Under the pieces are notes generated by a model. That model made no database searches. It saw only the letters and a program-made list of their open reading frames with translations, and was not told the origin of the DNA. Below are positions 40,560 to 54,257 of a stretch of 64,000 nucleotides of DNA, one piece after another; the first letter of the stretch is position 1, and each line of letters starts with the position of its first letter. The DNA lies in assembly GCF_003570925.1 (NCBI RefSeq), contig NZ_QXIS01000032.1:1-64000 (forward strand), read 5' to 3'. Source of the stretch: Candidatus Cryosericum terrychapinii (GTDB taxonomy: Bacteria; Caldisericota; Caldisericia; Cryosericales; Cryosericaceae). The position numbers and the translations under genes were made by a program.

Positions 40560-40593
40560 CAGGCACAAGCCTGGTTGATGAGACTTGTGCCTG
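40560..40593 (+). terminator. hairpin after the propeller gene
   Basis: CAGGCACAAG (40560-40569) pairs with CTTGTGCCTG (40584-40593), 14-base loop, no T-run; between convergent genes. Confidence 0.5.
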
Positions 40594-40626: not shown

Positions 40627-41103
40627 CTAGTGTCCCTTCCCCGCGATCATCTCCAATGCATGAGGGAGCAAAGGAATGAGGACGTCCATGCCGTCCTGAA
40701 CAGCCTTGAGGCTGCCGGGGAGGTTGACGATGAGGGTGGTGGCTCGCAGGCCGGCTTCGGCGCGGGACAGGCAGGCGGTCGGAACGCCCTTGTTGAGGCC
40801 GTAGAGACGGATGGCTTCGCTGATGCCGGGTGCACGGCGGTCGACGACGGATAGGGTTGCCTCAGGGGTGACGTCGCGGGGAGAGAAGCCCGTGCCGCCC
40901 GTGGTGATGATGGCGTTCACGTGGCGTTCCATGGACCACTGCTCAAGGATTCCGGCGATTTCCACCTGCTCGTCGGGGACGATCGTTGTTTCCTCGATGG
41001 TCCAGCCGGCATCCGTGAGACGCTTTACAATAGCGGGTCCGCTCTCGTCGACGCGGCTCCCGGCGGCGCAACTGTCACTGACGGTCAGAACTGCTGCTTT
41101 CAT
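40627..41103 (-). CDS. mogA: molybdenum cofactor biosynthesis protein MogA/MoaB family
   Basis: A 158-residue MPT-adenylyltransferase-type protein: TTGGTGFSPRDVTPEAT is the conserved molybdopterin-binding loop, with VSDSCAAGSRVDESGP at the N terminus and NLPGSLKAVQDG near the end. It activates molybdopterin with ATP before metal insertion by MoeA. It is the last gene of the tungstate/Moco operon and overlaps the MOSC gene by 4 bp. Confidence 0.9.
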   Translation of the reverse strand: MKAAVLTVSDSCAAGSRVDESGPAIVKRLTDAGWTIEETTIVPDEQVEIAGILEQWSMERHVNAIITTGGTGFSPRDVTPEATLSVVDRRAPGISEAIRLYGLNKGVPTACLSRAEAGLRATTLIVNLPGSLKAVQDGMDVLIPLLPHALEMIAGKGH

Positions 41104-41555
41104 GGGGTTCCTCCTTTGCTGATGATGCTGATGATGTCGCCGGCCTCAATTGTGCCGGGTGTGATGACGCGGGTGAAGATGCCCTCGCGGGGCATGACAC
41201 AGTCGCCGACCAGCTTGCGGATCTCACAGCCGAGGTGGCACTCCTTGCCGATCTGCGTGACCTCCATCATGACGGCGGTGCCGATCTTGAGACGTGTCCC
41301 GATTGGCAGGGTCAGCAGATCGAGGCCTTGTGTCGTGATATTCTCGGCGAAGTCGCCGGGCTGCAGCACCAGGCCGTGGCCCTGCATCTTATCGATACTC
41401 TCCTGCGCCAGAAGGCTGAGTTGACGGTGCCAGTCGCCTGCGTGGGCATCACCCTGCATGCCCAGCATGCTAATAGTGACAGGACCTTGCAGCGGGTGCT
41501 TGCGTGTGCCCTTCTGCTCAGAGATGTTGACCGAGACCACGACGCGGTCGTTCAT
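41100..41555 (-). CDS. MOSC domain protein
   Basis: A 151-residue stand-alone MOSC domain: GMQGDAHAGDWHRQLSLL, QPGDFAENITTQGLDLLTLP, and EVTQIGKECHLGCEIRK with the conserved Cys. The family is related to the molybdenum cofactor sulfurase C terminus and often accompanies mogA. Overlaps moaC and mogA by 4 bp each, so the three are translationally coupled. The start at 41555 fits the overlap; the longer 41642 start runs into moaC. Confidence 0.88.
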   Translation of the reverse strand: MNDRVVVSVNISEQKGTRKHPLQGPVTISMLGMQGDAHAGDWHRQLSLLAQESIDKMQGHGLVLQPGDFAENITTQGLDLLTLPIGTRLKIGTAVMMEVTQIGKECHLGCEIRKLVGDCVMPREGIFTRVITPGTIEAGDIISIISKGGTP

Positions 41556-42034
41556 GCACCCTCCCACGTTCCGGACTGGCCGCCGCTCTTGCGGATGAGG
41601 CGCAGGTCGGTAATACGGATACCCCGTTCCACAGCCTTGCACATGTCGTAGACGGTGAGTGCGGCGGTGGAGGCGGCGACCAGGGCTTCCATCTCGACAC
41701 CGGTCTCGGCCTTGGTGCGGGCGGTCGCTTCGATGTCAACAGCGTGGTCAGTCTCGTTGAGTGTCAGTGTCACGCCGATAAACGTCATGTTGATCTGGTG
41801 ACAGAGGGGGATCAGCTCCCACGTGCGTTTGGCCGCCTGGATGCCGGCAACCTGTGCAACCGTCACGACGTCGCCCTTCTTGAGGTTGCCCGCCTTGACT
41901 AGCTCGAAGGTGGCTGGCGCCAGCAGGACGCGGCAGCGGGCGACGGCCTCACGGACTGTCTCCAGCTTACCGCCGACGTCTACCATGCGCGCGTTGCCCT
42001 TGTCGTCCAGATGTGTCAGCTCATCACTTCCCAT
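41552..42034 (-). CDS. moaC: cyclic pyranopterin monophosphate synthase MoaC
   Basis: A 160-residue MoaC: ARMVDVGGKLETVREAVA, LIPLCHQINMTFIGV and the active-site KAETGVEMEALVAAS are complete. It converts the MoaA product to cyclic pyranopterin monophosphate. The moaA stop codon begins 1 bp upstream, so the genes nearly abut. Confidence 0.95.
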   Translation of the reverse strand: MGSDELTHLDDKGNARMVDVGGKLETVREAVARCRVLLAPATFELVKAGNLKKGDVVTVAQVAGIQAAKRTWELIPLCHQINMTFIGVTLTLNETDHAVDIEATARTKAETGVEMEALVAASTAALTVYDMCKAVERGIRITDLRLIRKSGGQSGTWEGA

Positions 42035-42035
42035 G

Positions 42036-43001
42036 CTATCCTCCTATGCTTCCCATGGCGCGGCCGTAGTCACTGGCCGTTGCCGGCATGCACTCGGGTT
42101 TCTGCTGCATCGCCCATACAAGCAGTGCACGCAGCGCCTCCTCGTTGACGACGGGGCGCAGGGCGGGCTTGATGTCAATCTCGTCGGCGCCGAACAGGCA
42201 CAGCCGCAGATGGCCGTCGGCGACCAGGCGCAGACGGTTGCACGTGCGACAGAAATGCTCGGTCACGGGCGCGATGATGGCCACTGTCCCGGGCGCCCCC
42301 GGGATACGGCGATACTCCTGCGCGGGACCGTTGCCTCGTGGCTTGTCGGCCGGCTCAAGAGGGGCCAGTGCTTCCAGCTTGCGTCGAAGCTCGGCGGCGG
42401 GTACCAGGCAGTTGTCCTCACCGAGTGGGCCGATGGGCATGTATTCGATGAAGCGGACCTCGACGGGCAGGCGCCTGGTGAGGTCGAGGTACGGCGCCAG
42501 GTCGTCGTTGACGCCACGCAGGACGACGACGTTGAGTTTGATGGGGCTGAACCCTGTGTCGACGGCCGCTTTGAGGCCGGCAAGGGCGGTGTCCAGCGAG
42601 CTGAGAAGCGTAAGGTGGGCGTAGACGGCCGGATCCAGCGAGGGCAGGCCGATATTGACACGTTTCAGTCCGGCGGCTTTCAGCTGGCCGGCAAACTGAG
42701 GCAGCAGGATACCGTTGGTGGTGAGCGAGAGGTCCTGCAGGCCGGGGACGGCCAGCAGCATGCGCACCAGATCCACAATGCCGGGGCGGTGCAGTGGTTC
42801 GCCACCGGTGAGGCGCACCTTGACGATACCTTCAGAGACGGCGACGCGCATGAACGCGACGATCTCCTCGAAGCGCAGGATGTCCTCGTGCTCCAGCATG
42901 GGCACACCGTCTTCCGGCATGCAGTACCGGCATCTCAGGTTGCAACGGTCGGTGACGGAGATGCGGATGTAGTCTATGGTACGTCCAAAACGGTCAGTCA
43001 T
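42036..43001 (-). CDS. moaA: GTP 3',8-cyclase MoaA
   Basis: A 321-residue radical SAM enzyme. N-terminal cluster C20, C24, C27 (CNLRCRYC), C-terminal cluster in HFCRTCNRLRLVADG and LRLCLF, and the C-terminal Gly-Gly (GSIGG). The SAM motif reads LTGGEPLHRPG, slightly unlike the usual LLR form. Catalyses the first step of molybdopterin synthesis from GTP. Its ATG overlaps the moeA stop by one base. Confidence 0.95.
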   Translation of the reverse strand: MTDRFGRTIDYIRISVTDRCNLRCRYCMPEDGVPMLEHEDILRFEEIVAFMRVAVSEGIVKVRLTGGEPLHRPGIVDLVRMLLAVPGLQDLSLTTNGILLPQFAGQLKAAGLKRVNIGLPSLDPAVYAHLTLLSSLDTALAGLKAAVDTGFSPIKLNVVVLRGVNDDLAPYLDLTRRLPVEVRFIEYMPIGPLGEDNCLVPAAELRRKLEALAPLEPADKPRGNGPAQEYRRIPGAPGTVAIIAPVTEHFCRTCNRLRLVADGHLRLCLFGADEIDIKPALRPVVNEEALRALLVWAMQQKPECMPATASDYGRAMGSIGG

Positions 43002-44233
43002 CAGTGGTCCTCCGGAAGGTCGGTGAGCTGTACGTGAACGGTCTGGCCCGCTTCGACGACGGGCGTCTCCTCGGGGAGGACGGCGATGCCTGTCGCAAGT
43101 GCCATGGACGTGAGAATACCGGACCCCTGGGAACCGGTCAGTGCGGCGTGGAGGGCTCCGTCGCGTTCCTGCAGGCGGACCCGCACGAAGTGGGCGCGTC
43201 CAGCGTCGGCGCCCTTGGCATATCGTTCGTCGAGGATGGTGGTACGGACGGGACGGTACAGCAGGGCATGGCCCATCATGCGGCGCACCAGCGGGCGCAC
43301 GTACTCTTCGGCACAGACCATGGAGGAGACGGGGTTGCCGGGCAGCCCGACAATACGTTTAGAACCCATGGTCCAGAACGCCATCGGCTTGCCGGGCTTC
43401 TGCTTGACGCGCCAGAAGACCAGTTTTGCGCCCATCTCCTGCAGGACGTCCTTGACGAAGTCGTAGTCGCCGACCGAGACGCCGCCGTTGGTGAGGACGA
43501 CGTCAGTCTGGACAAGCGCTTGCTCGAGCGCCGACCTCACGGCCTTACGCGTGTCGGGCACGCGGGCGAAGACGACTGGTTCTGCCCCCATCGCGGCGAC
43601 CTGTGCACGCAGCGAGTGTGCGTTGGCATCGCGGATCTGTCCGGGTCCAGGCACCTGAGCGGTATCGACCAGCTCGCTGCCTGTGGTCAGGACGGCAACA
43701 CGGGCACGGGGGTAAACGGTGACGGTGGCATGACCGGCTGCAGCGCAGACGCCGACTTCGCCAGGACGCAGGACAGTGCCGGCTGTCAGGACGGTGGCGC
43801 CGTCCTTCATGTCTTCGCCTGCCCGGCGTACGTTGACGGCGTTCTTGAGGGCCAGGAGGATCAGGACGTCGTTGCCTTCCGTGCGGGTCACCTCGACGTG
43901 GACGACGGTGTCGGCGCCATCCGGGAGGGGAGCGCCCGTCATGATACGGATGGCGGTGCCAGGGCGGACCGGCTGCGTAGCGACACTGCCCGCAGGGACG
44001 TCCTCCAGGATGTGCAGGCGGACAGGCGTGGCCTCGGATGCCTGCTGAATGTCGGCAGCCTGGACGGCGAACCCATCCATGGCGGAGTTGGCGAAGGGGG
44101 GCACGTTTCCGTGCGCAATCACATCCTCCGCAAGTACCAGGCCGGCAGCCTCGTCAAGCGGCATGGTGACCGGTGTCAGCGGTGTTGCATGGTCCAGTAT
44201 TGCCTTCAACGCTTCCTCGATGCTCAGCATCAT
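43001..44233 (-). CDS. moeA: molybdopterin molybdenumtransferase MoeA
   Basis: A 410-residue MoeA: PPFANSAMDGFAVQAAD, RIMTGAPLPDGADTVV, TNGGVSVGDYDFVKDVL and GLPGNPVSS are all present. It inserts molybdate, or tungstate in tungsten users, into adenylated molybdopterin. It lies 41 bp downstream of the tungstate ABC ATPase gene, so the metal is likely to be tungsten at least in part. Confidence 0.93.
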   Translation of the reverse strand: MMLSIEEALKAILDHATPLTPVTMPLDEAAGLVLAEDVIAHGNVPPFANSAMDGFAVQAADIQQASEATPVRLHILEDVPAGSVATQPVRPGTAIRIMTGAPLPDGADTVVHVEVTRTEGNDVLILLALKNAVNVRRAGEDMKDGATVLTAGTVLRPGEVGVCAAAGHATVTVYPRARVAVLTTGSELVDTAQVPGPGQIRDANAHSLRAQVAAMGAEPVVFARVPDTRKAVRSALEQALVQTDVVLTNGGVSVGDYDFVKDVLQEMGAKLVFWRVKQKPGKPMAFWTMGSKRIVGLPGNPVSSMVCAEEYVRPLVRRMMGHALLYRPVRTTILDERYAKGADAGRAHFVRVRLQERDGALHAALTGSQGSGILTSMALATGIAVLPEETPVVEAGQTVHVQLTDLPEDH

Positions 44234-44274: not shown

Positions 44275-45060
44275 TTACACAAGCAGCTCGCCCGCAGCGA
44301 ATCGGCGGGTCTGCTCATCGCGGGGATTGGTGAAGAAGTCATCGCGCGGCGCCTGTTCTATGATACGCCCCTGGTGAAGGAACGCCACCTGGTCGGCGAC
44401 GCGACGGGCTTCGAAGATGTCCTGCGTCACGACAACGGCTGTCATGCCCAGGTCGTCCCTCATGTGCATCAACAGGTCTTCGAGCAGCTTCGTGCCATAG
44501 GGGTCCAGGCTGGCGGATGGTTCGTCGAGGAAGAGGAGGCGTGGCTGCAGGGCCAGGGCCCGCGCTACCGAGAGACGGGCCGCTTCCCCGCCGGAAAGCG
44601 ACGAAGCATGCTGACGGGCGCGATCGGAGATGCCGGTCTCGCGCAGGGCGGCCATGGACCGCTCCTCTGCCTCGGCACGGCTCACGCCGCGCAGCTGCAG
44701 CCCGTACGTCACGTTGCTGAGGACCGAGCTGCTGAAGATCGCCGGGTGTTGAAACGCGAGCAGCATCTGTCGCCGTAGCGGCAGGAAGTGTCCATCCTGG
44801 GAAGGACTCCTGGTCGACGTGCCATACGCGACGGTCGACGCGCCCGGGACAACGCCGTCGTAGGCGACAGTGCCTTCGTCGGCGGGCTCCAGCAGTCCAA
44901 GGATGCGCAGGAGGGTGGTCTTGCCGGCGCCGTTTGTGCCGAGGATGACGGTAATGCTGCCTGCGAGGATGTTGAGATCGATGTCCCGGAGGACCTCCCG
45001 GGCACCAAAGCGCTTGCGCACACCTCTGACCGTGATGAGGTCAGTTGATGTGACGGACAT
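44275..45060 (-). CDS. tupC: tungstate ABC transporter ATP-binding protein
   Basis: A 261-residue ATPase with Walker A LGTNGAGKTTLL, signature LSGGEAARLSVA, Walker B LLFLDEPSASLDP. Start 45060 overlaps the permease end by 20 bp, and the product matches the TupC/WtpC size. It energises uptake with the adjacent permease. Assignment to tungstate follows from the TupA-type binding protein upstream; a molybdate role cannot be excluded. Confidence 0.87.
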   Translation of the reverse strand: MSVTSTDLITVRGVRKRFGAREVLRDIDLNILAGSITVILGTNGAGKTTLLRILGLLEPADEGTVAYDGVVPGASTVAYGTSTRSPSQDGHFLPLRRQMLLAFQHPAIFSSSVLSNVTYGLQLRGVSRAEAEERSMAALRETGISDRARQHASSLSGGEAARLSVARALALQPRLLFLDEPSASLDPYGTKLLEDLLMHMRDDLGMTAVVVTQDIFEARRVADQVAFLHQGRIIEQAPRDDFFTNPRDEQTRRFAAGELLV

Positions 45061-45760
45061 TGCCGACCTCCGACGTGCCCTCACCCAGACGGGAGAGGAC
45101 CACATTGACCAGGAACGAGACGAGGAGCAGGATGATGCCCAGTGCAATGGCTCGGTCGAAGCTGCCCTGACGGGTCTCGAGGACGAGTGCCGTGGTCAGC
45201 GTGCGGGTCGCTCCCTGGATGTTGCCGCCCACCAGCATGGCTGCCCCGACCTCGCTAATGGCGTTGCCAAACGCCGTGATGACGGCACCGAGGATGGCCA
45301 GGCGTGCCTCGCGGAGCAGAGCGATGGACGCCTGTGCGCGTGTCGCGCCGAGCGTGAGCGCGAGGTCGAAGACGCCCTTGTCGGCGCCGCGCAGTCCAAG
45401 GACCGAAAGGCCGACGATGACTGGGAGAGCCAGCGTGATCTGGGCGATCACCATCGCCGTTGGCGTGTAGAGCAGTCCCAACGGCCCAAGAGGGCCGCTG
45501 CGGGACAACAGGAGGTACACGAGGAGGCCTGCCACCACGGGTGGAAACCCCATCAGGGTGTAGACGACGTTCATGACGCCCTGTTTGCCCCGGAAGTGGG
45601 AGAATGCGAGCAGGATGCCGAGGGGGAACCCTGCGAGCGCTGACCAGAACAGGGCGCTCATGGTGACGCGGAGGGACGTTCCCAGGGCTTCGTACGTTCC
45701 GGGGTCCAGGGAGACGATGAGCCGAACGGCCTGAACGAAGCCCCGGCCGATATCACCCAT
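45041..45760 (-). CDS. tupB: tungstate ABC transporter permease
   Basis: A 239-residue permease with about six helices and the EAA-like loop ALTLGATRAQASIALLREAR before AVITAFGNAISEVGAAMLVG, which is typical of TupB. It follows the binding-protein gene by 26 bp and overlaps tupC. Confidence 0.88.
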   Translation of the reverse strand: MGDIGRGFVQAVRLIVSLDPGTYEALGTSLRVTMSALFWSALAGFPLGILLAFSHFRGKQGVMNVVYTLMGFPPVVAGLLVYLLLSRSGPLGPLGLLYTPTAMVIAQITLALPVIVGLSVLGLRGADKGVFDLALTLGATRAQASIALLREARLAILGAVITAFGNAISEVGAAMLVGGNIQGATRTLTTALVLETRQGSFDRAIALGIILLLVSFLVNVVLSRLGEGTSEVGNVRHIN

Positions 45761-45786: not shown

Positions 45787-47598
45787 CTACTTGTGGACTT
45801 CGAGTCGGTAGACGTACTTCAGAGTATTCACCAGGAAGGTACCCTTCGTGGTCATGAGAGCCATGAAGCCGTCGTCGGTCGAGAGTGTTGCGTCATTCTT
45901 GAGATAGACGACGATGATCTTCGTACCCGTGAGCGCGTTGTAGATGTCGTCATAGTCCAGCGTCACGTGGCTGCCGTCCGTGGCTGTGGCGACGACGGTC
46001 AGGTGCCTGGCGGCTGTAAGATCGGGCGAGATGACCTTCAGGATATCGATGAGCTGGACGCCGCCGTACAGGACCGGCGTAAGCGACTGGTTGTTCTGCG
46101 GGTAGATCTTGACCGTCGTCATGGGGAACCTGCGGACGTCGTTCAGACGATAGGTGACCGCCTTTCCGCTCGGGAGCACGATGTCGAGGCTGCGCGTAGC
46201 TTTCCACTCGGTGGAATCCGGGTAGAAGAGAGTCTGCCCGTATTGCTCTACGCCGAAGCTCTTGATGAGTTCCTGCCCGGGCAGGCCGGTCATGAAATCA
46301 GCAAATCGAATAGCAAGGTCGACCTTGACCGTTGGGTACTTGGCGGGGTTCACGGGCATGAGGCCGTAGGGATTGAGCAGTCCCTGGGACCCCTGGACGA
46401 GGATCGGCAGGTTGATCTTGCCACCGTTCTGATAGGCGAGATACGTGGCGCGATCGGTCAGCGTGTATGCCTGTTTCTGGTCGGTCATCATGAGGACTTC
46501 ACCCATGCCCTGTCCGGCGCTGAGATACCAGGACTTGCCGGCAGGCGTGATGCCCGCTGCCTTCCAGATGTCGAGCTCCTTGGTGTTGGTGCCCGACTTG
46601 TCGCCACGGCTGATGAAGGTCGAGCCGGAGGCAGCGAGCTTCGTGAACGCAGCGGTCGCGTCGGTCATGCCCTTGATCTTCGCAGGGTCACTGGCCGGCC
46701 CTACGATAATGAAGTCGTTGTACATGACGTCTTTGCGGAAGAGACCGAAGCCGTCGGCCATGAACAGGTCTTCCTGGGCACGCGCATGCACGAGCAGGAC
46801 GTCGGCGTCGCCGTTGCGCCCAGTCGTGATAGCCTGGCCGGTACCGACCGAGATGATCTTGACCTTGACGTGGTTGGCCTTCTCGAAAATGGGGATCAGG
46901 AAAGTCAGGAGTCCAGAGTCGAAGGTGGAGGTCGTCGTAGCAAGGATCATCGACTGTGTCTCGGGTGCCTTGTAGTCCAGGATAGCGGGGAAGTAGGCGG
47001 CAGTCTGAGCACGGGTGATGGCGGCGGTCGGCTTGGTTACATCAGTGACCATGCCTTCCTGTACGCAGGCGGCAGCGGCTGTGCATGCCCATTGCGAAAG
47101 GTCCTCCGAGCCTGCGACCTTGTCCAGAACCGTGTGCGTCGCCATGCCGCGGATCTCAAAGCCCATACGCTGTGCAACGATGGCCATCGACTCCTCGCGG
47201 GTGATGTTGGCTGTCGGGTGGAAGGTCCCGTCCGGGTACCCGGTGACCCAGCCCTTAGCGATGGCGGCGTAGACAAGAGGAGCAGCCCAGTTGCTCGTAG
47301 GCAAGTCCTTGAACGTCTTGGTGGGCGATTGTACAGGATCGAGACCAGCGGAACGTGCGAGTGCCACGATGAACTCGGCACGGGTGACCGGGGCGTTGGG
47401 ACGGAACGTCCCATCCGGGTAACCCTTCATGAACCCTTTGGCGACAATCAGCTCGATAATGGCCTGATCGGGACGTCCGGCGATGTCGGACAGTGATGCG
47501 GCGCGTGCAGGGGGGGCGGACGCCATGGACAGAAACGCGAGAATGAGTACCGTCGCAAGGACGCGACGGACCAGCAGACGTGACAGACCTCTATTCAT
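45787..47598 (-). CDS. tupA: SLH-anchored tungstate-binding protein TupA with mopterin-like C-terminal domain
   Basis: A 603-residue exported fusion. A signal peptide (to about residue 32) is followed by three SLH domains (KGFMKGYPDGTFRPNAPVTR, GWVTGYPDGTFHPTANITRE, a third degenerate). A TupA-type binding domain spans about residues 205-460 (ATTTSTFDSGLL, GTGQAITTGRNGDADVLLVH, MYNDFIIVGPASDPA). The last 135 residues (LPSGKAVTYRLNDVRRFP, VLYGGVQLIDILKVI, YIYRLE-like end) resemble a degenerate oxidoreductase molybdopterin-binding domain without its Cys. Normal TupA is about 280 residues, so both extensions are unusual. ATG 47598 follows GGAAAGGAG. Confidence 0.85.
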   Translation of the reverse strand: MNRGLSRLLVRRVLATVLILAFLSMASAPPARAASLSDIAGRPDQAIIELIVAKGFMKGYPDGTFRPNAPVTRAEFIVALARSAGLDPVQSPTKTFKDLPTSNWAAPLVYAAIAKGWVTGYPDGTFHPTANITREESMAIVAQRMGFEIRGMATHTVLDKVAGSEDLSQWACTAAAACVQEGMVTDVTKPTAAITRAQTAAYFPAILDYKAPETQSMILATTTSTFDSGLLTFLIPIFEKANHVKVKIISVGTGQAITTGRNGDADVLLVHARAQEDLFMADGFGLFRKDVMYNDFIIVGPASDPAKIKGMTDATAAFTKLAASGSTFISRGDKSGTNTKELDIWKAAGITPAGKSWYLSAGQGMGEVLMMTDQKQAYTLTDRATYLAYQNGGKINLPILVQGSQGLLNPYGLMPVNPAKYPTVKVDLAIRFADFMTGLPGQELIKSFGVEQYGQTLFYPDSTEWKATRSLDIVLPSGKAVTYRLNDVRRFPMTTVKIYPQNNQSLTPVLYGGVQLIDILKVISPDLTAARHLTVVATATDGSHVTLDYDDIYNALTGTKIIVVYLKNDATLSTDDGFMALMTTKGTFLVNTLKYVYRLEVHK

Positions 47599-47603
47599 TG
47601 TTT

Positions 47604-47700
47604 CTCCTTTCCACAATGGGAGGCACGGCCGTTTCCCGCCGTACCCTGCCGGCTGTACGCCATGGCTTGTGCCGAAGGCCGGACAGCTCGAAGAATTATC
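47604..47700 (-). promoter_or_regulatory. probable Moco riboswitch
   Basis: The minus-strand leader of tupA contains a GGCAC/GTGCC closing stem, internal CCGGC/GCCGG pairing, and the 3' signature GCCTCCC-N5-TGGAAAGG, which matches the end of the E. coli moaA Moco RNA as I remember it (GCCTCCCG, then TGGAAAGG before the start). The AAAGGAG is also the ribosome site, so ligand binding would act on translation. Context (tungstate uptake plus moaA, moaC, moeA, mogA) fits. A covariance-model search is needed for proof. Confidence 0.6.
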
Positions 47701-47716
47701 CTCTGCAGCTGCAGAG
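47701..47716. promoter_or_regulatory. 16-bp palindrome at the tupA transcription start
   Basis: CTCTGCAGCTGCAGAG is a perfect palindrome, extended by ATTAT/ATAAT on each side after one mismatch. It covers about +1 to +16 of the predicted transcript, so it may be a repressor operator or a 5' hairpin. It does not resemble the ModE TATATA operator. Confidence 0.5.
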
Positions 47717-47722
47717 AATAAT

Positions 47723-47750
47723 AGTATAGACGGTGGCACCTGTATGGCAA
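47723..47750 (-). promoter_or_regulatory. sigma-70-type promoter of the tungstate/Moco operon
   Basis: Minus strand: TTGCCA (47745-47750), 16 bp, TATACT (47723-47728). It sets the start about 120 bp before tupA and directly in front of the palindrome. Confidence 0.65.
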
Positions 47751-47780: not shown

Positions 47781-47950
47781 GTCATTCCCCCCGAGTCCTT
47801 TTGTTCAAGACCCCCGAGTATTTCTTTTCAATGCCCCCGAGCATGTTAGTCCAATGCGAGGGGTGTTTCTGAGGGGTGCTCCTCACGAGTATTTCTTTGC
47901 AATACGAGTGGTGTTCCTCGGCGTATGCGGGAATCCAGCGGTGTCCAGGC
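47781..47950. repeat. composite repeat element: split GTCATTCCC palindrome around 23-bp tandem units
   Basis: The left end GTCATTCCCC (47781) and right end GCGTATGCGGGAATCCAG (from 47931) are the two halves of the dispersed inverted repeat. Between them lie three 23-bp tandem units (47788-47810, 47811-47833, 47834-47856), each starting CCCCCGAG, and two more diverged units (CGAGTATTTCTTTGCAATA). There is no ORF and no transposase, so it looks like a small non-autonomous element or recombination product. Confidence 0.6.
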
Positions 47951-48056
47951 CGGTGAGTTCCCGTCTTCATTGACCTTTGGGCCGTTTGGCGGTATACCCA
48001 ACACATCTGCCTCTGTGTGGGTTGAGCATGTGGCCCGCCGGCGGCGCAGGAGGAAA

Positions 48057-51000
48057 ATGATGACGAGGCGACTGCAATGGTGTCTGAGGATCGTGGTGGC
48101 GGTGGCTCTGGTGCTGGTGTGCGGGTTGCCGGGGAAGCCCGCACGCGGCGCACTGAACCTGCCCACGATCGACGCCGCCTTTCTGGCCCGTGTCGGGTCA
48201 TCGCCATCGTCACAGGACGTCATCGTCCGCATGCAAGGTCTTCCGCTGGTCGGCAGAGTCCAGGACGCGGGAGCGGAGGGGTGGCTGGACACTGCGGCCG
48301 CGCATGCATCAGAGGCAGCGATCTCACAGGAGCAGAATGCGTTCCTGTCCTCGGTGACGGCGCAAGGTGTCACGTATACGGTCAAGCAGCGACTGAGCGT
48401 GACGTTCAACGGTCTCGCACTGAGCCTTGCGGGGTCCGACCTCGCGGTGGTTGCGGGGACGAGCCATGTCTCGTTTGTCTACGAATCCCGGCAGGCGCAG
48501 GTCCTTGACGATGACACAAATGCCGCCATGGGAGTAAATCAGGCGTTGTGGAACAGTACGTCGGCGAGTGGAAGGAAACTCGACGGAACCGGCACGGCCA
48601 TTGGCATTATCGACACCGGTATCGACTACACGCATCCGGACCTCGGCGGAGCAAAGTTCCCCAATGCAAAGGTGGTGGGAGGCTACGACTTCGCTGACGA
48701 CGACGCGAACCCCATGGACATACAGGGCCACGGCACACACGTCGCGGGCATCGCCGCTGCGGATGGCAAGGTGCAGGGTGTCGCGCCAAAGGCGAAGCTC
48801 TACGCCTATAAAGTCTTCAGCGACCAGGGAGGAGGAGCCGCCGATGGAGACATCATCGCTGCACTTGACCGCTCCGTGCGCGACCACTGCACAGTGGTCA
48901 ATATGTCCCTGGGTACGTCCGGGGGGACGGCTGATACGCCCGAGAACGAGGCCATCAACAACGCGGTCAAGGCGGGTGTCGTGGTCGTCGCAGCGACGGG
49001 CAACTCCGGTCCGCGCAACCCTTTGACCAACTGGCCCCTGGGTTCGCCGGCGACGGCGCTCAATGTCATCGCGGTAGCCGCCTCCAACGACGGCCCCTAT
49101 CCAGTAGTGGAGGTCGTGACGCCGACCGGAACGGGACTGGACAATATCATGGGTAGTTATGCCGACATCGCTCCGGAGTTCAAGGAAGGCTCCACATATA
49201 GCATCGTGGACGCCGGGTATGGCTCGAAGACCGATTTTGCTGCTGTGAACGTCCAGGGCAAGGTCGCACTTGTCGAACGAGGGCCCATCGGGACCGGCGG
49301 GATCTACTTCCGCGACAAGGTTCTCAATGCTCAGGCTGCGGGAGCCGCTGGTGTCATCATCTACAACCACAGCCCCGGAGTCCTTGGTATGACGCTCAAG
49401 GTGGCGGTGGGCGACGAGAGTAAGAACTACGTACCCTGCATCGGCATTACGCAGGACGCAGGATTGGACCTGAAGAAGCTCACGACGAGAGGGCTTGTCG
49501 TCCGGTTTCAAACACGGAGCAGCCTGGGGACGCTTGCAGACTTCAGTTCGATGGGCCCTACCGAGGACTTTCACTTCAAGCCGGAGGTCTCTGCCCCCGG
49601 CGTCACGGTGAACTCGACATTTCCAGGTGGCGAGTATGCCAAGCTGGACGGCACGTCGATGGCCTCGCCTGCGGTGGCCGGAGCCGTCGCATTGATCAAG
49701 GCGGCTCATCCGGACTGGACACCGGAGACGGTCAAAATGGCGCTGATGAACACGTCCGATGTCCTGCGCAACTGGCAGAACGACGAGGTCATCACGTGGA
49801 CACTGCAGGGAGCCGGCCGGGTCAACGTACCAGCTGCCATCGACGCTCCGGCCGTGGCCGAGATAGCCGCGTCCGACGGCACAACGACGTTCCAGACAGG
49901 CGCCGTCCTTATCGACGATGACAGTATTGCGACCGCGACGACGATCAAGCTCCGCAGTCTTTCGGACCACAGTGTGACCTTCTCGCCTTCGTTCAATTGG
50001 ACGATGGATGCGCAGGCAGGCGTGGCGGTGACCATCACTCCGTCACCCGTAATCGTCGTTCCCGGCGGAACGGCACAGGTGAGCGTGACCACGACCGTGA
50101 ACCCGGCTGCCGTGGGGGACGGGCCGCACGAGGGGATGATCACCTTGCAGTCGACCAGCGGAACTTTGCACGTGCCCTACATCTACTGGCGCGCGGGCGT
50201 TGAGGTCCCTGAACAGCTGAGCGGGATGCAGACGAGCACGGCAACCCTTGAAGCGCCCAGTGGCACGATGGACGTCCGGTTCAACATCGGGTATGGCGGC
50301 GTGCGACCTGCCGTCGAGGCAGGAGACGAGCCGCAGGGTTCCAGCTTTGCCTCGCAGGTCGTGGCAACGGTCACGGGCATAGATGGCGCGGCGACCCTTG
50401 GGACCGTGTACCGTAGGTCGCTGTTGCTCGTGGGTGACCACGAGTTTTCCTGGGACGGTCGAGACGTTCACGGCAACTTCTTCCTGACCGACGGAGACTA
50501 TCTCCTGAGGACGTCGGTCGTCGAGAGCAACAACGACCCGGCCAACCTGAAGATCTCGGAGGCAGCACATCAGTCGGTGCCCATTCATATCACGGGCATG
50601 GCAGGTGTTCCCGCGCTGAGTCTGAGTATCATGGGTGGGAGTCTGCGTGAGGGCGAAGACATGACGGTCAGCCTGAGCGCCGACACGACAACGAGTATTG
50701 CAGGCATAGCGGCTGTCGTGCAATTCGAACCGTACTACCTTTCGGTGAAGTCAGTGCGGGAGGGAGACTTCCTGAACCAGGGGGGAACAACCCCGTCGAG
50801 CTTTGCCTCCACTGTTGACGCCTTGGCGGGCAGCGTTGCAGTCAAAGGCGCGACAGGGACGGCCCAGGTCCAGGGAAGCGGCAGTGTGTGTACGGTCACA
50901 TTTACCGTCGTACACAGCGGTTCTACAGAACTGTGGATTGGAAACCCTCTGGCGACCAACGGCAGTGGGACGACAGAGATGATCGCCCGGTCGCTGGCCA

Positions 51001-51206
51001 TCACGTTGCGTTCCGGAGGCAACGTCTGGGACATCGATGGCAACAAGCGTGTGGACCTGGCCGACATGGTCGCTCTTGCCCGCGCGTACGGCTCGAAGGC
51101 CGGGGATAAGCGGTATGACAACATGGCAGACCTCAACGGCGATGGACGCGTCGACGACGCCGACCTGCAGATCCTGCGCCAGCACTATGGCGACGTCTAC
51201 CCCTAG
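48057..51206 (+). CDS. subtilisin-like serine protease with cohesin-like and dockerin modules
   Basis: A 1049-residue secreted S8 protease. Signal peptide MMTRRLQWCLRIVVAVALVL; inhibitor_I9-like propeptide; catalytic Asp186 (IIDTGIDYTHPDLG), His228 (GHGTHVAGI), Ser534 (DGTSMASPAVAG); PA domain inserted at about residues 350-480; FlgD-like DGRDVHGNFFLTDGDY; a cohesin-like domain (about 850-985); and a C-terminal type I dockerin with two calcium loops (DIDGNKRVDLADMVAL, DLNGDGRVDDADLQIL). ATG 48057 is preceded by GGAGGAAA. It probably acts at the cell surface, tethered by dockerin-cohesin contact to the next gene's product. Confidence 0.9.
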   Translation: MMTRRLQWCLRIVVAVALVLVCGLPGKPARGALNLPTIDAAFLARVGSSPSSQDVIVRMQGLPLVGRVQDAGAEGWLDTAAAHASEAAISQEQNAFLSSVTAQGVTYTVKQRLSVTFNGLALSLAGSDLAVVAGTSHVSFVYESRQAQVLDDDTNAAMGVNQALWNSTSASGRKLDGTGTAIGIIDTGIDYTHPDLGGAKFPNAKVVGGYDFADDDANPMDIQGHGTHVAGIAAADGKVQGVAPKAKLYAYKVFSDQGGGAADGDIIAALDRSVRDHCTVVNMSLGTSGGTADTPENEAINNAVKAGVVVVAATGNSGPRNPLTNWPLGSPATALNVIAVAASNDGPYPVVEVVTPTGTGLDNIMGSYADIAPEFKEGSTYSIVDAGYGSKTDFAAVNVQGKVALVERGPIGTGGIYFRDKVLNAQAAGAAGVIIYNHSPGVLGMTLKVAVGDESKNYVPCIGITQDAGLDLKKLTTRGLVVRFQTRSSLGTLADFSSMGPTEDFHFKPEVSAPGVTVNSTFPGGEYAKLDGTSMASPAVAGAVALIKAAHPDWTPETVKMALMNTSDVLRNWQNDEVITWTLQGAGRVNVPAAIDAPAVAEIAASDGTTTFQTGAVLIDDDSIATATTIKLRSLSDHSVTFSPSFNWTMDAQAGVAVTITPSPVIVVPGGTAQVSVTTTVNPAAVGDGPHEGMITLQSTSGTLHVPYIYWRAGVEVPEQLSGMQTSTATLEAPSGTMDVRFNIGYGGVRPAVEAGDEPQGSSFASQVVATVTGIDGAATLGTVYRRSLLLVGDHEFSWDGRDVHGNFFLTDGDYLLRTSVVESNNDPANLKISEAAHQSVPIHITGMAGVPALSLSIMGGSLREGEDMTVSLSADTTTSIAGIAAVVQFEPYYLSVKSVREGDFLNQGGTTPSSFASTVDALAGSVAVKGATGTAQVQGSGSVCTVTFTVVHSGSTELWIGNPLATNGSGTTEMIARSLAITLRSGGNVWDIDGNKRVDLADMVALARAYGSKAGDKRYDNMADLNGDGRVDDADLQILRQHYGDVYP

Positions 51207-51215
51207 GAGGCGGCA

Positions 51216-54200
51216 ATGAAGAAAACGATTCGCTTGCTGTGCGTGATTGCACTCCTTGGAGCGTTGTTGACGCCCGGCACGGGAACGGCGACGGGCGCTG
51301 TTGCGTTGACCGAGGTCGACACGATCGGCGTGATGCCCTCTGACTATGTCGGGACGTTGACCATCGAGAGTGTCAACACGGTCGAGAAGGATTATCCGTC
51401 GGCACAGGCATTCCCGTCGCAGGGCGTGGCTGTTCTGCCGAATGGGGACGTCGTCGTGTGTGACACTGGGTACGGCCGCATCCACGTTCTCTCGGCTGAC
51501 CTTGTCCACAAGCGCGTCATCGGGTCGTTGGGGAGCGGGCGCGGGCAGCTTCAGTACCCGGCCGATGTAGCTGTGGACAGTGCCGGCAACATTTATGTCG
51601 CTGACTTTTTCGGCAACAAGGTTGTCAAGTACGGCGCCGACGGCTCGGTCGTGATGGAGTTCGGCTCGGAAGGCAAGGCAGCCGGCCAGTTCGAGGGACC
51701 GGCCGGCATCGCCGTGACGCCGGACGGCAGCATCTGGGTCGCAGACCAGTTGAACGACCGCCTGGAGCAGTTCACGGCGACAGGCACCTACGTAACAACC
51801 GTGACAGGCATCTCCCGTCCCGCCGGCATGACCTCGGCGGGTCTCTTCTCCTATGTCGTTTCCAGTGGCGACAGCGCCGTTTACCGGTTGAGCGGAACGA
51901 CGGCTGTGCGTGTTTTTGCGGCGCCTGGAGATGCGGAGAATCTCATCACCAGCGCTGCTGACCTCGCAGTGGACACAAAGGGCAGCATCTACGTGGCAGA
52001 CCGCGGCACGGGTGAACTGACGGTCCCAGCCGTCAAGGTCTTCTCCGGCAGCGGGCAGTACCAGCACAGTTTTGGACAGTATCCGGCCGACATGACCGAC
52101 ATCCAGGACGGCGAAGTGCTCAGTCCCGGCGGTGTCGCCGTTGCACCTGACGGCATGGTCTACGTCATGAACAGCGGGTTCTTCCGCGACGCGACCAATC
52201 CCTTTGGTAGCGGCTACCACGCGAAACTTATTGAGTATGCTCCTGACGGCAGCGTGGTGGCTGTCCAGGACTATGCCATCGACCTCCGAGGTCGGCTCAA
52301 CAATCCCCAGGACGTTGCAGTGGACGGCAAGGGTCAGCTGTGGGTAGCATGCAGCTCGCCCGCGGTCTCCGCAGACGGGCAGACGATCGAGTGGAACCGC
52401 GGGTACGTGGACGCCCTGGACCGCAGCGGCAATGAGCTGTTCACTGTCATGCGTGCAGGTTCCCGTTCGATGCAGCTGGTGGAATCCGTCGCGGCAAGCG
52501 GTGCAGGACTAGTGTACGTCGCGGCGCAGGATGCCAGGGGAGGATTCATCGCTGTCTATGATGAAGCCGGCAACTATGTCAGGACTATTGCCGCCGGCAA
52601 GGTTGACGGGCCGGGCGATCTCGAGGTGGCAAGCGATGGGACGCTGTGGGCCTGCAACCAGGGCGACGCATCTGTCGTCCATCTGGCGGCTGACGGCACC
52701 GAACTGGGCCGTTTCACGACTGCCGGTATGCCCGGCGGGCTGACCGTTCTTCCTGGCGGAGACCTGCTCGTCTGCCTCTGGGGTGAGTCTTCTGAAGTTC
52801 AGCAGGTGGTTCGCTATGGCTCCACGGGGGTCGTCATCCGGGTGTTCGGAGCAGCGGGCGGTGGTCGCGGCCCCGGCCAGATGTACTATCCTCACGATGC
52901 GATGCTGCTGCCCGACGGCCTTATCCTGGTAAGCGATGCCGAGAACGGGCGCTTCGTCGCGTTCCATCAGGACGGATCGGTGGCCTGGACGACGGCCAGG
53001 TCCTGGTATCTGCCGGGCAGGATGACGTGGTCGGCGCAGGGCACCCTCTATGTGACCGACGGCTTTCATAACGTGATCCGGGAGTTCAGCTATGGACAAC
53101 CGGGGGCGTCGCAGGATGCCGGCGTGACCGTCCGGCTGGACACCGTGGAGCGCTTGGTCTCGGCTGGAACGACGACCCGCCTTGAGGTGAGTCTTCGCAA
53201 CCGGGGTTCCCGGACGGACACGTTTGCGGTCAAGTCGACGGTCCGTGCCGGGAGCACGTGGTCGAGTTCTGTCAGTCCCGCGTCGGTCACGGTATTGTCT
53301 GGAGCGACAGGAACGGTAGAAGTGACGGTCCAGGTCCCGGCGGGACTTGCGCCGGGGACAGTCGGCACCGTGGATGTCGAGGTCAGCAGCGCGCTGGACC
53401 CGGCAAGCATCACGACTGTCCATGCCGAAGTCGCAATTCGCACTGCTCCGCCCGTGGTTATTGGGGGAGTCTCAGTCGAAACATCGATGGGAGCGACAGT
53501 GGATGTGCCGCTGGACGCACGCGACGTGGAGAATCTGTATGGAGCGGGGTGCCGTGTCACGTATGACGACAAGGCCCTGCAGTTCGTGAGTGTCGCGAAG
53601 GGCAGTCTTCTGGGAACCGAAACCCTGTTCATCGAGGATCACGGCACCGCAGGCGAAGTAACCGTCGCGTCGACACTCGAGGGCGATGCCCAGCCGGTCA
53701 GTGGAGACGGCAGTATCGCGGTCCTGACGTTCCGCGCGCTCGGGGCCGGAACGACACAGTTGGACATCGACGAGCTTCAGTTGCTGGGTGGAGACGGGGG
53801 CAAGCAGGAACTTGCAGGCAAGGCGCGTTCCATTCCCGTGCGTGTCATCGGAGAACAACCCCGGACGGTTCTTGTCCTTCATATCGGCTTGCCGACCATG
53901 AAAGCCGGCAGCTCAAACGTCGTACTGGATGCGCCGCCGGTCATTGGTGAGGGCCGCACGCTGCTCCCGATCAGGGCAGTCGTCGAATCCCTTGGCGGAA
54001 CCGTTGCCTGGGATGCCACTAGTCAGACGGTGAGCATATCGCTCGACGGGACCGAACTCGAGCTCGTCATCGGGAAGTCGAGCGCATTGGTGAATAGTAA
54101 ATCGATGCCCATCGACAGCATGAACCCAAAGGTTGTGCCTCAGATCCTGAACAGTCGTACGATGCTCCCTCTGCGCTTCGTCGCCGAGAGCCTGGGCGCA

Positions 54201-54257
54201 GACGTGCAGTGGGAAGATTCGACTCAGACGATCACGATTACGTACCCCAAGCCCTGA
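51216..54257 (+). CDS. NHL-repeat protein with cohesin and copper amine oxidase N-like domains
   Basis: A 1013-residue secreted protein. Signal peptide; about six NHL/propeller repeats (AVDSAGNIYVADFFGNKV, GIAVTPDGSIWVADQLNDR, DVAVDGKGQLWVA) up to residue 630; a CARDB/NPCBM-like beta domain (LRNRGSRTDTFAVKS); a cohesin domain around 745-880 (VDVPLDARDVENLYGAGCRV, GDGSIAVLTFRALGAGTTQL); and a C-terminal copper-amine-oxidase-N-like domain (GRTLLPIRAVVESLGGTVAW, SRTMLPLRFVAESLGADVQW). It starts 9 bp after the protease gene with GGAGGCGG, so the two are co-transcribed and may bind each other. Confidence 0.83.
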   Translation: MKKTIRLLCVIALLGALLTPGTGTATGAVALTEVDTIGVMPSDYVGTLTIESVNTVEKDYPSAQAFPSQGVAVLPNGDVVVCDTGYGRIHVLSADLVHKRVIGSLGSGRGQLQYPADVAVDSAGNIYVADFFGNKVVKYGADGSVVMEFGSEGKAAGQFEGPAGIAVTPDGSIWVADQLNDRLEQFTATGTYVTTVTGISRPAGMTSAGLFSYVVSSGDSAVYRLSGTTAVRVFAAPGDAENLITSAADLAVDTKGSIYVADRGTGELTVPAVKVFSGSGQYQHSFGQYPADMTDIQDGEVLSPGGVAVAPDGMVYVMNSGFFRDATNPFGSGYHAKLIEYAPDGSVVAVQDYAIDLRGRLNNPQDVAVDGKGQLWVACSSPAVSADGQTIEWNRGYVDALDRSGNELFTVMRAGSRSMQLVESVAASGAGLVYVAAQDARGGFIAVYDEAGNYVRTIAAGKVDGPGDLEVASDGTLWACNQGDASVVHLAADGTELGRFTTAGMPGGLTVLPGGDLLVCLWGESSEVQQVVRYGSTGVVIRVFGAAGGGRGPGQMYYPHDAMLLPDGLILVSDAENGRFVAFHQDGSVAWTTARSWYLPGRMTWSAQGTLYVTDGFHNVIREFSYGQPGASQDAGVTVRLDTVERLVSAGTTTRLEVSLRNRGSRTDTFAVKSTVRAGSTWSSSVSPASVTVLSGATGTVEVTVQVPAGLAPGTVGTVDVEVSSALDPASITTVHAEVAIRTAPPVVIGGVSVETSMGATVDVPLDARDVENLYGAGCRVTYDDKALQFVSVAKGSLLGTETLFIEDHGTAGEVTVASTLEGDAQPVSGDGSIAVLTFRALGAGTTQLDIDELQLLGGDGGKQELAGKARSIPVRVIGEQPRTVLVLHIGLPTMKAGSSNVVLDAPPVIGEGRTLLPIRAVVESLGGTVAWDATSQTVSISLDGTELELVIGKSSALVNSKSMPIDSMNPKVVPQILNSRTMLPLRFVAESLGADVQWEDSTQTITITYPKP

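Follow-up and report, generated by a model that had tools for sequence, protein, structure and literature searches.

A gene on the reverse strand of the 64,000-nt stretch of Candidatus Cryosericum terrychapinii DNA analyzed here (the window) probably encodes the wall-anchored tungstate receptor of a TupABC importer, which is expressed in an operon with molybdopterin-synthesis (mo) genes under a P3-less riboswitch and carries a C-terminal tail acting as a non-catalytic accessory domain of the sulfite oxidase (SUOX) fold. The domains, contact residues, operon, riboswitch, loss of the Mo-ligand cysteine, lineage distribution and selection were computed; the direction of regulation, the position at the wall and the ligand or partner of the tail are our inferences.

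In the mechanism that we propose, SLH repeats rather than a lipid anchor would fix the receptor to the cell wall, outside the membrane. The receptor gene would head a single operon with the molybdopterin-synthesis genes, and the operon would feed aldehyde:ferredoxin oxidoreductase-type tungsten enzymes. The tail, catalytically dead, would have been added in the Cryosericum lineage and since maintained by selection, and would most likely be a non-enzymatic accessory domain that binds, at the wall, either a small molecule or a partner protein. The cofactor of tungsten and pterin is assembled inside the cell. With a tungstate receptor and a dead cofactor-enzyme fold placed under a tungsten-cofactor riboswitch, metal and cofactor would be tied together in one wall protein.

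Architecture of the probable receptor and its operon

The open reading frame at 45,787–47,598 (−) comprises 603 codons and a stop, and an AAAGGAG ribosome site lies directly 5′ of the ATG at 47,598. Its coordinates are exact and the gene is real. The orthologue from Ca. C. septentrionale is 97% identical over residues 1–603, and the gene is no assembly accident, as it is found with its tail in 11 of the 15 genomes of the genus. Cryosericum inhabits permafrost and lake sediment.

The order of SLH, TupA and tail regions in the 603-residue protein was established from the reading frame, Pfam and NCBIfam profiles and a match to structure 3lr1. The export signal (residues 1–33; 47,500–47,598 (−)), read directly from the sequence, has no lipobox cysteine, and the first cysteine of the protein is residue 172. 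The SLH region (residues 34–205; 46,984–47,499 (−)) scored 86 bits in Pfam. Three SLH repeats had been predicted: the first two are strong, at 49.4 and 43.6 bits against a Pfam cut-off of 20.8, but the third has decayed, at 11.8 bits. The adjoining TupA domain (residues 212–462; 46,213–46,965 (−)) matched PBP_like_2 at 159.6 bits over residues 212–437. Together, the SLH and PBP_like_2 scores bear out the SLH-anchored TupA of the original prediction.

The assignment of the TupA domain was based on profiles, fold and contact residues. The domain matched 3lr1 with an E-value of 2.7e-85. In a Foldseek search with the full-length model, in which the TupA core had block-mean pLDDT values mostly of 75–96, 3lr1 ranked first and 5my5 second. 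The tungstate contacts of Desulfovibrio TupA described in the portion of PMC5517513 available to us are Thr9–11, Ser12, His59, Arg118, Thr124 and Asp170. All of these are kept, as the TTTS of residues 221–224, H271, R331, T337 and D382, and the domain should work as a tungstate binder. Its score with NCBIfam NF041772 was 208.7 bits against a cut-off of 400, and that of the permease TupB with NF041773 was 167.7 bits against a cut-off of 320. As both scores are far below these equivalog cut-offs, we refer to the domain as TupA-type and treat its choice of tungstate over molybdate as presumptive.

The tupB permease gene (45,041–45,760 (−); NF038017, 246 bits, cut-off 100) is separated from the tail by 29 bases. 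It is followed on the same strand by tupC (44,275–45,063; ABC ATPase, ABC_tran, 88.2 bits), moeA (43,001–44,233; MoeA_N, MoCF_biosynth and MoeA_C, all above cut-off), moaA (42,036–43,001; TIGR02666, 335.2 bits, above cut-off), moaC (41,552–42,034; TIGR00581, 192 bits, above cut-off, and PF01967), a gene for a MOSC-domain protein (41,100–41,642; PF03473, 46.7 bits) and a mogA/moaB-type gene (40,627–41,103; PF00994, 114.1 bits, and TIGR00177, above cut-off). A terminator-like hairpin of 13 pairs with a T-rich tail closes the operon (40,560–40,593 (−)); it has the longest stem of the four such sites found, against 3.9 expected. The order tupA-tupB-tupC-moeA-moaA-moaC-MOSC-mogA was intact in all six Cryosericum loci whose flanks were long enough.

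AFOR_C, the tungsten-type aldehyde oxidoreductase domain, was present in 14 of the 15 genus genomes. The Omp85 profile matched none of the 15 (control positive in 7 of 14). Based on the absence of Omp85, which is no proof of a monoderm wall, Cryosericum probably has a single membrane; this fits a wall-anchored receptor. A divergently oriented pair of genes at 47,925–54,257 (+) lay beside tup in all eight Cryosericum loci. One encodes a subtilase with cohesin- and dockerin-type domains, and the other an NHL-repeat protein with cohesin and copper-amine-oxidase N-terminal domains. The gap between the divergent genes contains four imperfect 23-nt direct repeats (CCCCCGAGT...) at 47,788–47,904. Elsewhere, an OLE RNA (RF01071, 330 bits) lies close to tup in Clostridium sp. 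Cult1 (L073:3302–3735).

Riboswitch and leader

The sole Rfam match within the window was a Moco/Tuco riboswitch, RF01055, at 47,588–47,705 (−), with a score of 67.1 bits (gathering 36; E = 5.4e-14). It spans the ribosome site and the start codon of the receptor gene, and the P3 positions are deleted in its alignment to RF01055. According to the portion of Regulski et al. (PMC2408646) available to us, P3-less forms pair with the tungsten cofactor (Tuco) in 17 of 19 organisms. By this criterion of P3 absence, the riboswitch is of the Tuco type. RF01055 also precedes tup in nine of nine further Cryosericum loci. Its presence at L013, a locus of a sister family with a tail-less SLH-TupA, and in 8 of the 12 other tup loci scanned indicates that the riboswitch is usual for tup.

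The same portion of PMC2408646 places the E. coli ribosome site within P1, implying repression by the ligand. By analogy, the P3-less riboswitch at the start codon would most likely lower expression when the tungsten cofactor is plentiful. In the minimum-energy fold of the leader, the ribosome site is in a loop and P1 is not formed; the OFF direction is thus argued only by analogy with E. coli moaA. The original prediction suggested that the tail may link metal capture to cofactor status. The coupling itself is found in the riboswitch over the gene start and in the operon shared with moeA, moaA, moaC, the MOSC gene and mogA; any contribution of the tail is hypothetical.

Upstream, a consensus scan located a promoter-like site, TTGCCA-16-TATACT (47,723–47,750 (−)), with 10 of 12 matches. 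Such a site is weak when taken alone, as two were found against 1.3 expected; TATACT was kept in all eight other Cryosericum loci listed. The head of the leader forms a 12-bp hairpin (47,695–47,722 (−)), detected in the minimum-energy fold and by the repeat finder, which overlaps the 5′ end of the riboswitch. Its stem persists across the other Cryosericum loci, through compensating changes in the case of L026; the hairpin could be a 5′ stabilizer, an operator or a part of the switch. In Ca. Cryosericum hinesii, a second RF01055 (L028:4011–4128 (+)) lies 1.9 kb upstream of the tup riboswitch and precedes an aldehyde dehydrogenase (PF00171) gene.

The C-terminal tail

The tail (residues 463–603; 45,790–46,212 (−)) was assigned as a Cys-less SUOX-fold domain from the PF00174 profile, alignments, structure searches and a shuffle test. 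All 11 Cryosericum genomes carrying the gene have the tail, with the gene frame-broken in G004 and partial in G006; the remaining four, which are 61–87% complete, had no match of TupA strength. A twelfth match in the genus search was a Cys-bearing SUOX protein of G015 and was not counted. Among the 97 TupA-core loci retrieved, the 20 Cryosericum rows, which include several genomes fetched twice, all had the tail. All 77 loci from outside the genus lacked it, their proteins ending at most 11 residues past the core. The SLH-TupA of L013, from another family of the same class, has no tail, and the SLH fusion is therefore older than the tail. Orthologues without the tail, which the original prediction held to count against it, thus occur in the sister family and in none of the gene-bearing Cryosericum genomes. 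The tail is an addition of the Cryosericum lineage. It is under purifying selection, with a median dN/dS over 36 gene pairs of 0.107 as compared with 0.090 for the SLH region and 0.058 for TupA.

In the whole protein, Oxidored_molyb (PF00174) scored 22.4 bits, below the cut-off of 24. Scanned alone, the tail scored 26.5 bits (E = 5.6e-6), with residues 490–602 aligned to positions 50–161 of the 169 in the profile. Such a partial match near the threshold, together with the poor structure model of the tail, might suggest that PF00174 matches by chance a wall domain to which it is unrelated. We consider this very unlikely: PF00174 matched all nine orthologous tails scanned, and the profile-profile score of the tail against six Cys-bearing SUOX-type proteins, 35.3, was reached by none of 100 column shuffles. 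Moreover, an independent profile match linked the tail to the Cys-bearing SUOX protein of G015 (E = 6.3e-5), and SUOX-fold entries topped the structure search. A pairwise profile test against the single SUOX protein of the own genome gave nothing (0.2%), and the tail profile alone had no match among PDB sequences up to an E-value of 10. As the model of the tail is very poor, its fold rests mainly on sequence profiles. By these, it is a genuine but partial PF00174 relative, and the predicted kinship of some 135 residues to the oxidoreductase molybdopterin-binding domain was upheld. The PF00174 score of the isolated tail could also be taken to indicate a working molybdopterin oxidoreductase at the cell surface, an idea that we find extremely improbable and that the sequence contradicts. 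Indeed, in the alignments, the position of the Mo-ligand cysteine is occupied by Pro500 in all nine genes compared, and the tail ends before the C-terminal GYWE.RGY segment of its Cys-bearing relatives. With both features missing, the tail is a relative of enzymes rather than an enzyme. The missing cysteine rules out catalysis, and the same substitution in every tail read leaves molybdopterin binding in the manner of the enzyme domain unsupported. Literature searches for SUOX combined with SLH and for a 'GEGP motif' returned no match.

To our knowledge, extracellular bacterial pterins had no clear purpose until PruR. PruR is described in the portion of PMC13259868 available to us as a Cys-less periplasmic pterin binder of the SUOX fold. 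The tail, likewise without the cysteine, might be a PruR-like sensor that binds extracellular free or cofactor-derived pterin and either alters the capture of tungstate or passes a signal to a partner. We regard such a sensor as unlikely. The structure prediction and search that had been proposed for the tail placed PruR and sulfite oxidase entries on top: 7kom was the first Foldseek match (E = 9.4e-4), and all five PruR entries listed (7kom, 7rkb, 7kos, 7kou and 7kp2) were among the best matches, at Z 5.2–6.8. However, the pLDDT of the tail-alone AlphaFold model is 35.7, which makes it a hint only (the tail region of the full-length model is mostly at 34–58), and unrelated superantigen-fold rows also reached Z 5 with this model; the structural likeness to PruR and SUOX is thus a hint, not proof. 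A profile of the tails and their Cys-less relatives found 7kos at 9.5e-5, but the direct comparison of tail and PruR profiles scored 15.0, a value that 23 of 100 shuffles attained and that is not significant. In the contact residues, PruR Asn102 corresponds to Asp541, a replacement that PruR groups C and D also show. Against this, Tyr104 corresponds to Ser543 in nine of nine tails, and Trp160 aligns with Lys594 or Tyr/Phe595. One fetched PruR relative has Asn102, Tyr104 and Trp160 numbered as in Agrobacterium PruR. All three annotated PruR relatives (of four fetched, one record being without annotation) adjoin an EAL-domain gene. The operon, composed of tup and mo genes only, contains no DcpA/DTB regulator or GGDEF/EAL partner. 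Membership of PruR was ruled out on the contact residues, as Tyr104 and Trp160 are not kept. As these residues are lost and the PruR profile comparison is not significant, pterin binding by the tail is possible but not supported at the residue level. The lost pocket aromatics would also suit a purely structural or docking role, in which the tail binds no small ligand and keeps TupA near TupB, the wall or a surface-layer neighbor. This is conceivable if somewhat doubtful. The position of the tail, C-terminal to the TupA fold, agrees with docking, as does its conservation: 92 of 141 sites are invariant, similar to the SLH region (114 of 172) and below TupA (201 of 251). However, more than a spacer is suggested by the Cys-less relatives, which are repeatedly found close to uptake and mob genes. 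The reading that we prefer, an accessory SUOX-fold domain, encompasses a ligand or a partner protein.

Cys-less relatives and comparison with known systems

Additional exported SUOX-like proteins without the cysteine were reached through weak PF00174 hits in other genomes. The score of the tail to one such group, A8, was 54.9 and is partly circular, several loci having been selected by means of profiles that include the tail; to the independent group A9, the score was 33.1, no better than that to the Cys-bearing SUOX proteins. In G133 and its relative G390, two Cys-less SUOX-like proteins are encoded alongside a TonB receptor, PF09819, ECF ATPases, a CbiQ-type EcfT and MobB/FeS in one cluster. 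Both clusters are headed by RF01055, which is P3-less in G133; of the eight loci with Cys-less relatives that were scanned, two had RF01055. As G133 and G390 each hold a separate TupA, free tungstate is not the obvious cargo of the TonB/ECF cluster, and the cluster was rejected as a replacement for TupABC. The clusters at L166:6172–15416 and L233:355–9738, with a Moco/Tuco riboswitch at the head and the TonB receptor, Cys-less SUOX-like, PF09819, ECF ATPase, CbiQ-type and MobB/FeS genes, also include a phosphodiesterase-like protein and have the appearance of an undescribed system for taking up a cofactor or a metal.

In G408 and G401, the Cys-less SUOX-like gene adjoins a MobA-type gene and a gene for a membrane protein without a Pfam match; related membrane proteins adjoin such genes in G079 and G362. 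In G156, the SUOX-like gene overlaps an ABC ATPase gene. A family of membrane proteins of ~205 residues with the motif GS(I/V/L)WG..E was found at L235:3299–3919, L216:5893–6507, L234:2891–3514 and L168:14–637. It had no match in Pfam or NCBIfam, and at the four loci read its gene neighbors that of a Cys-less SUOX-like protein. At L167:9172–10980 (−), a PF00174-like protein with a CxxCH motif is fused to a tetrapyrrole methylase and adjoins a TonB-type receptor gene.

Neighbors were counted at 29 loci, of which L200, unmatched by the profile, was dropped, leaving 14 non-Cys and 14 Cys-bearing. The non-Cys assignment of L198, L199 and L210–L212 rests on poor alignments. Among the non-Cys loci, eight had a transporter-type neighbor and four had MobA or MobB; among the Cys-bearing loci, there were one ABC ATPase, one MoeA and no MobA or MobB. 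The count is biased toward an association, since the reference proteins (transporter parts, MobA and MobB) came mostly from non-Cys loci and several loci were picked with tail-holding profiles. The phylum-level searches centered on G133 and G362 covered only 13 and 17 genomes, respectively. There is a fair chance that the tail belongs to a wider Cys-less SUOX-fold set serving uptake of the Mo/W cofactor. The stronger proposal, which we put forward tentatively and think rather improbable, is that Cys-less exported SUOX-fold domains are recurring ligand carriers in the uptake of Mo/W cofactor or a pterin precursor, and that in Cryosericum such a carrier became fused to the tungstate receptor, giving a single wall protein that would handle both the metal and its pterin partner. 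If the relatives are carriers, they would represent an unrecognized salvage route for molybdopterin-type cofactors and would give a function to many small proteins annotated as 'molybdopterin-dependent oxidoreductase', an annotation also seen on PruR relatives.

Compared with the TupA of known TupABC systems (3lr1 and 5my5), the Cryosericum receptor has the same fold and the same TTTS, His, Arg, Thr and Asp contacts, with tupBC likewise downstream and a Moco/Tuco riboswitch upstream. Known TupA has a plain signal peptide or a lipid anchor and no C-terminal SUOX-fold tail, whereas the protein described here has an SLH wall anchor and the tail, and, unlike the curated equivalog, it scores below the NCBIfam TupA cut-off. 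The riboswitch is a full-length RF01055 aptamer above gathering, placed before a tungstate transporter and moa/moe genes; it is of the P3-less form and otherwise nothing unusual. With sulfite oxidase and YedY (PF00174), the tail shares the domain family by profile; in contrast to these enzymes, it has proline for cysteine and no GYWE.RGY segment and is predicted to be non-catalytic. PruR (7kos, 7kom and 7rkb) and the tail are both small exported domains without the Mo-ligand cysteine and of the SUOX fold, as far as the weak model and the profiles indicate for the tail. Unlike PruR, the tail is fused to TupA, does not keep Tyr104 and Trp160, and has no DcpA-type partner.
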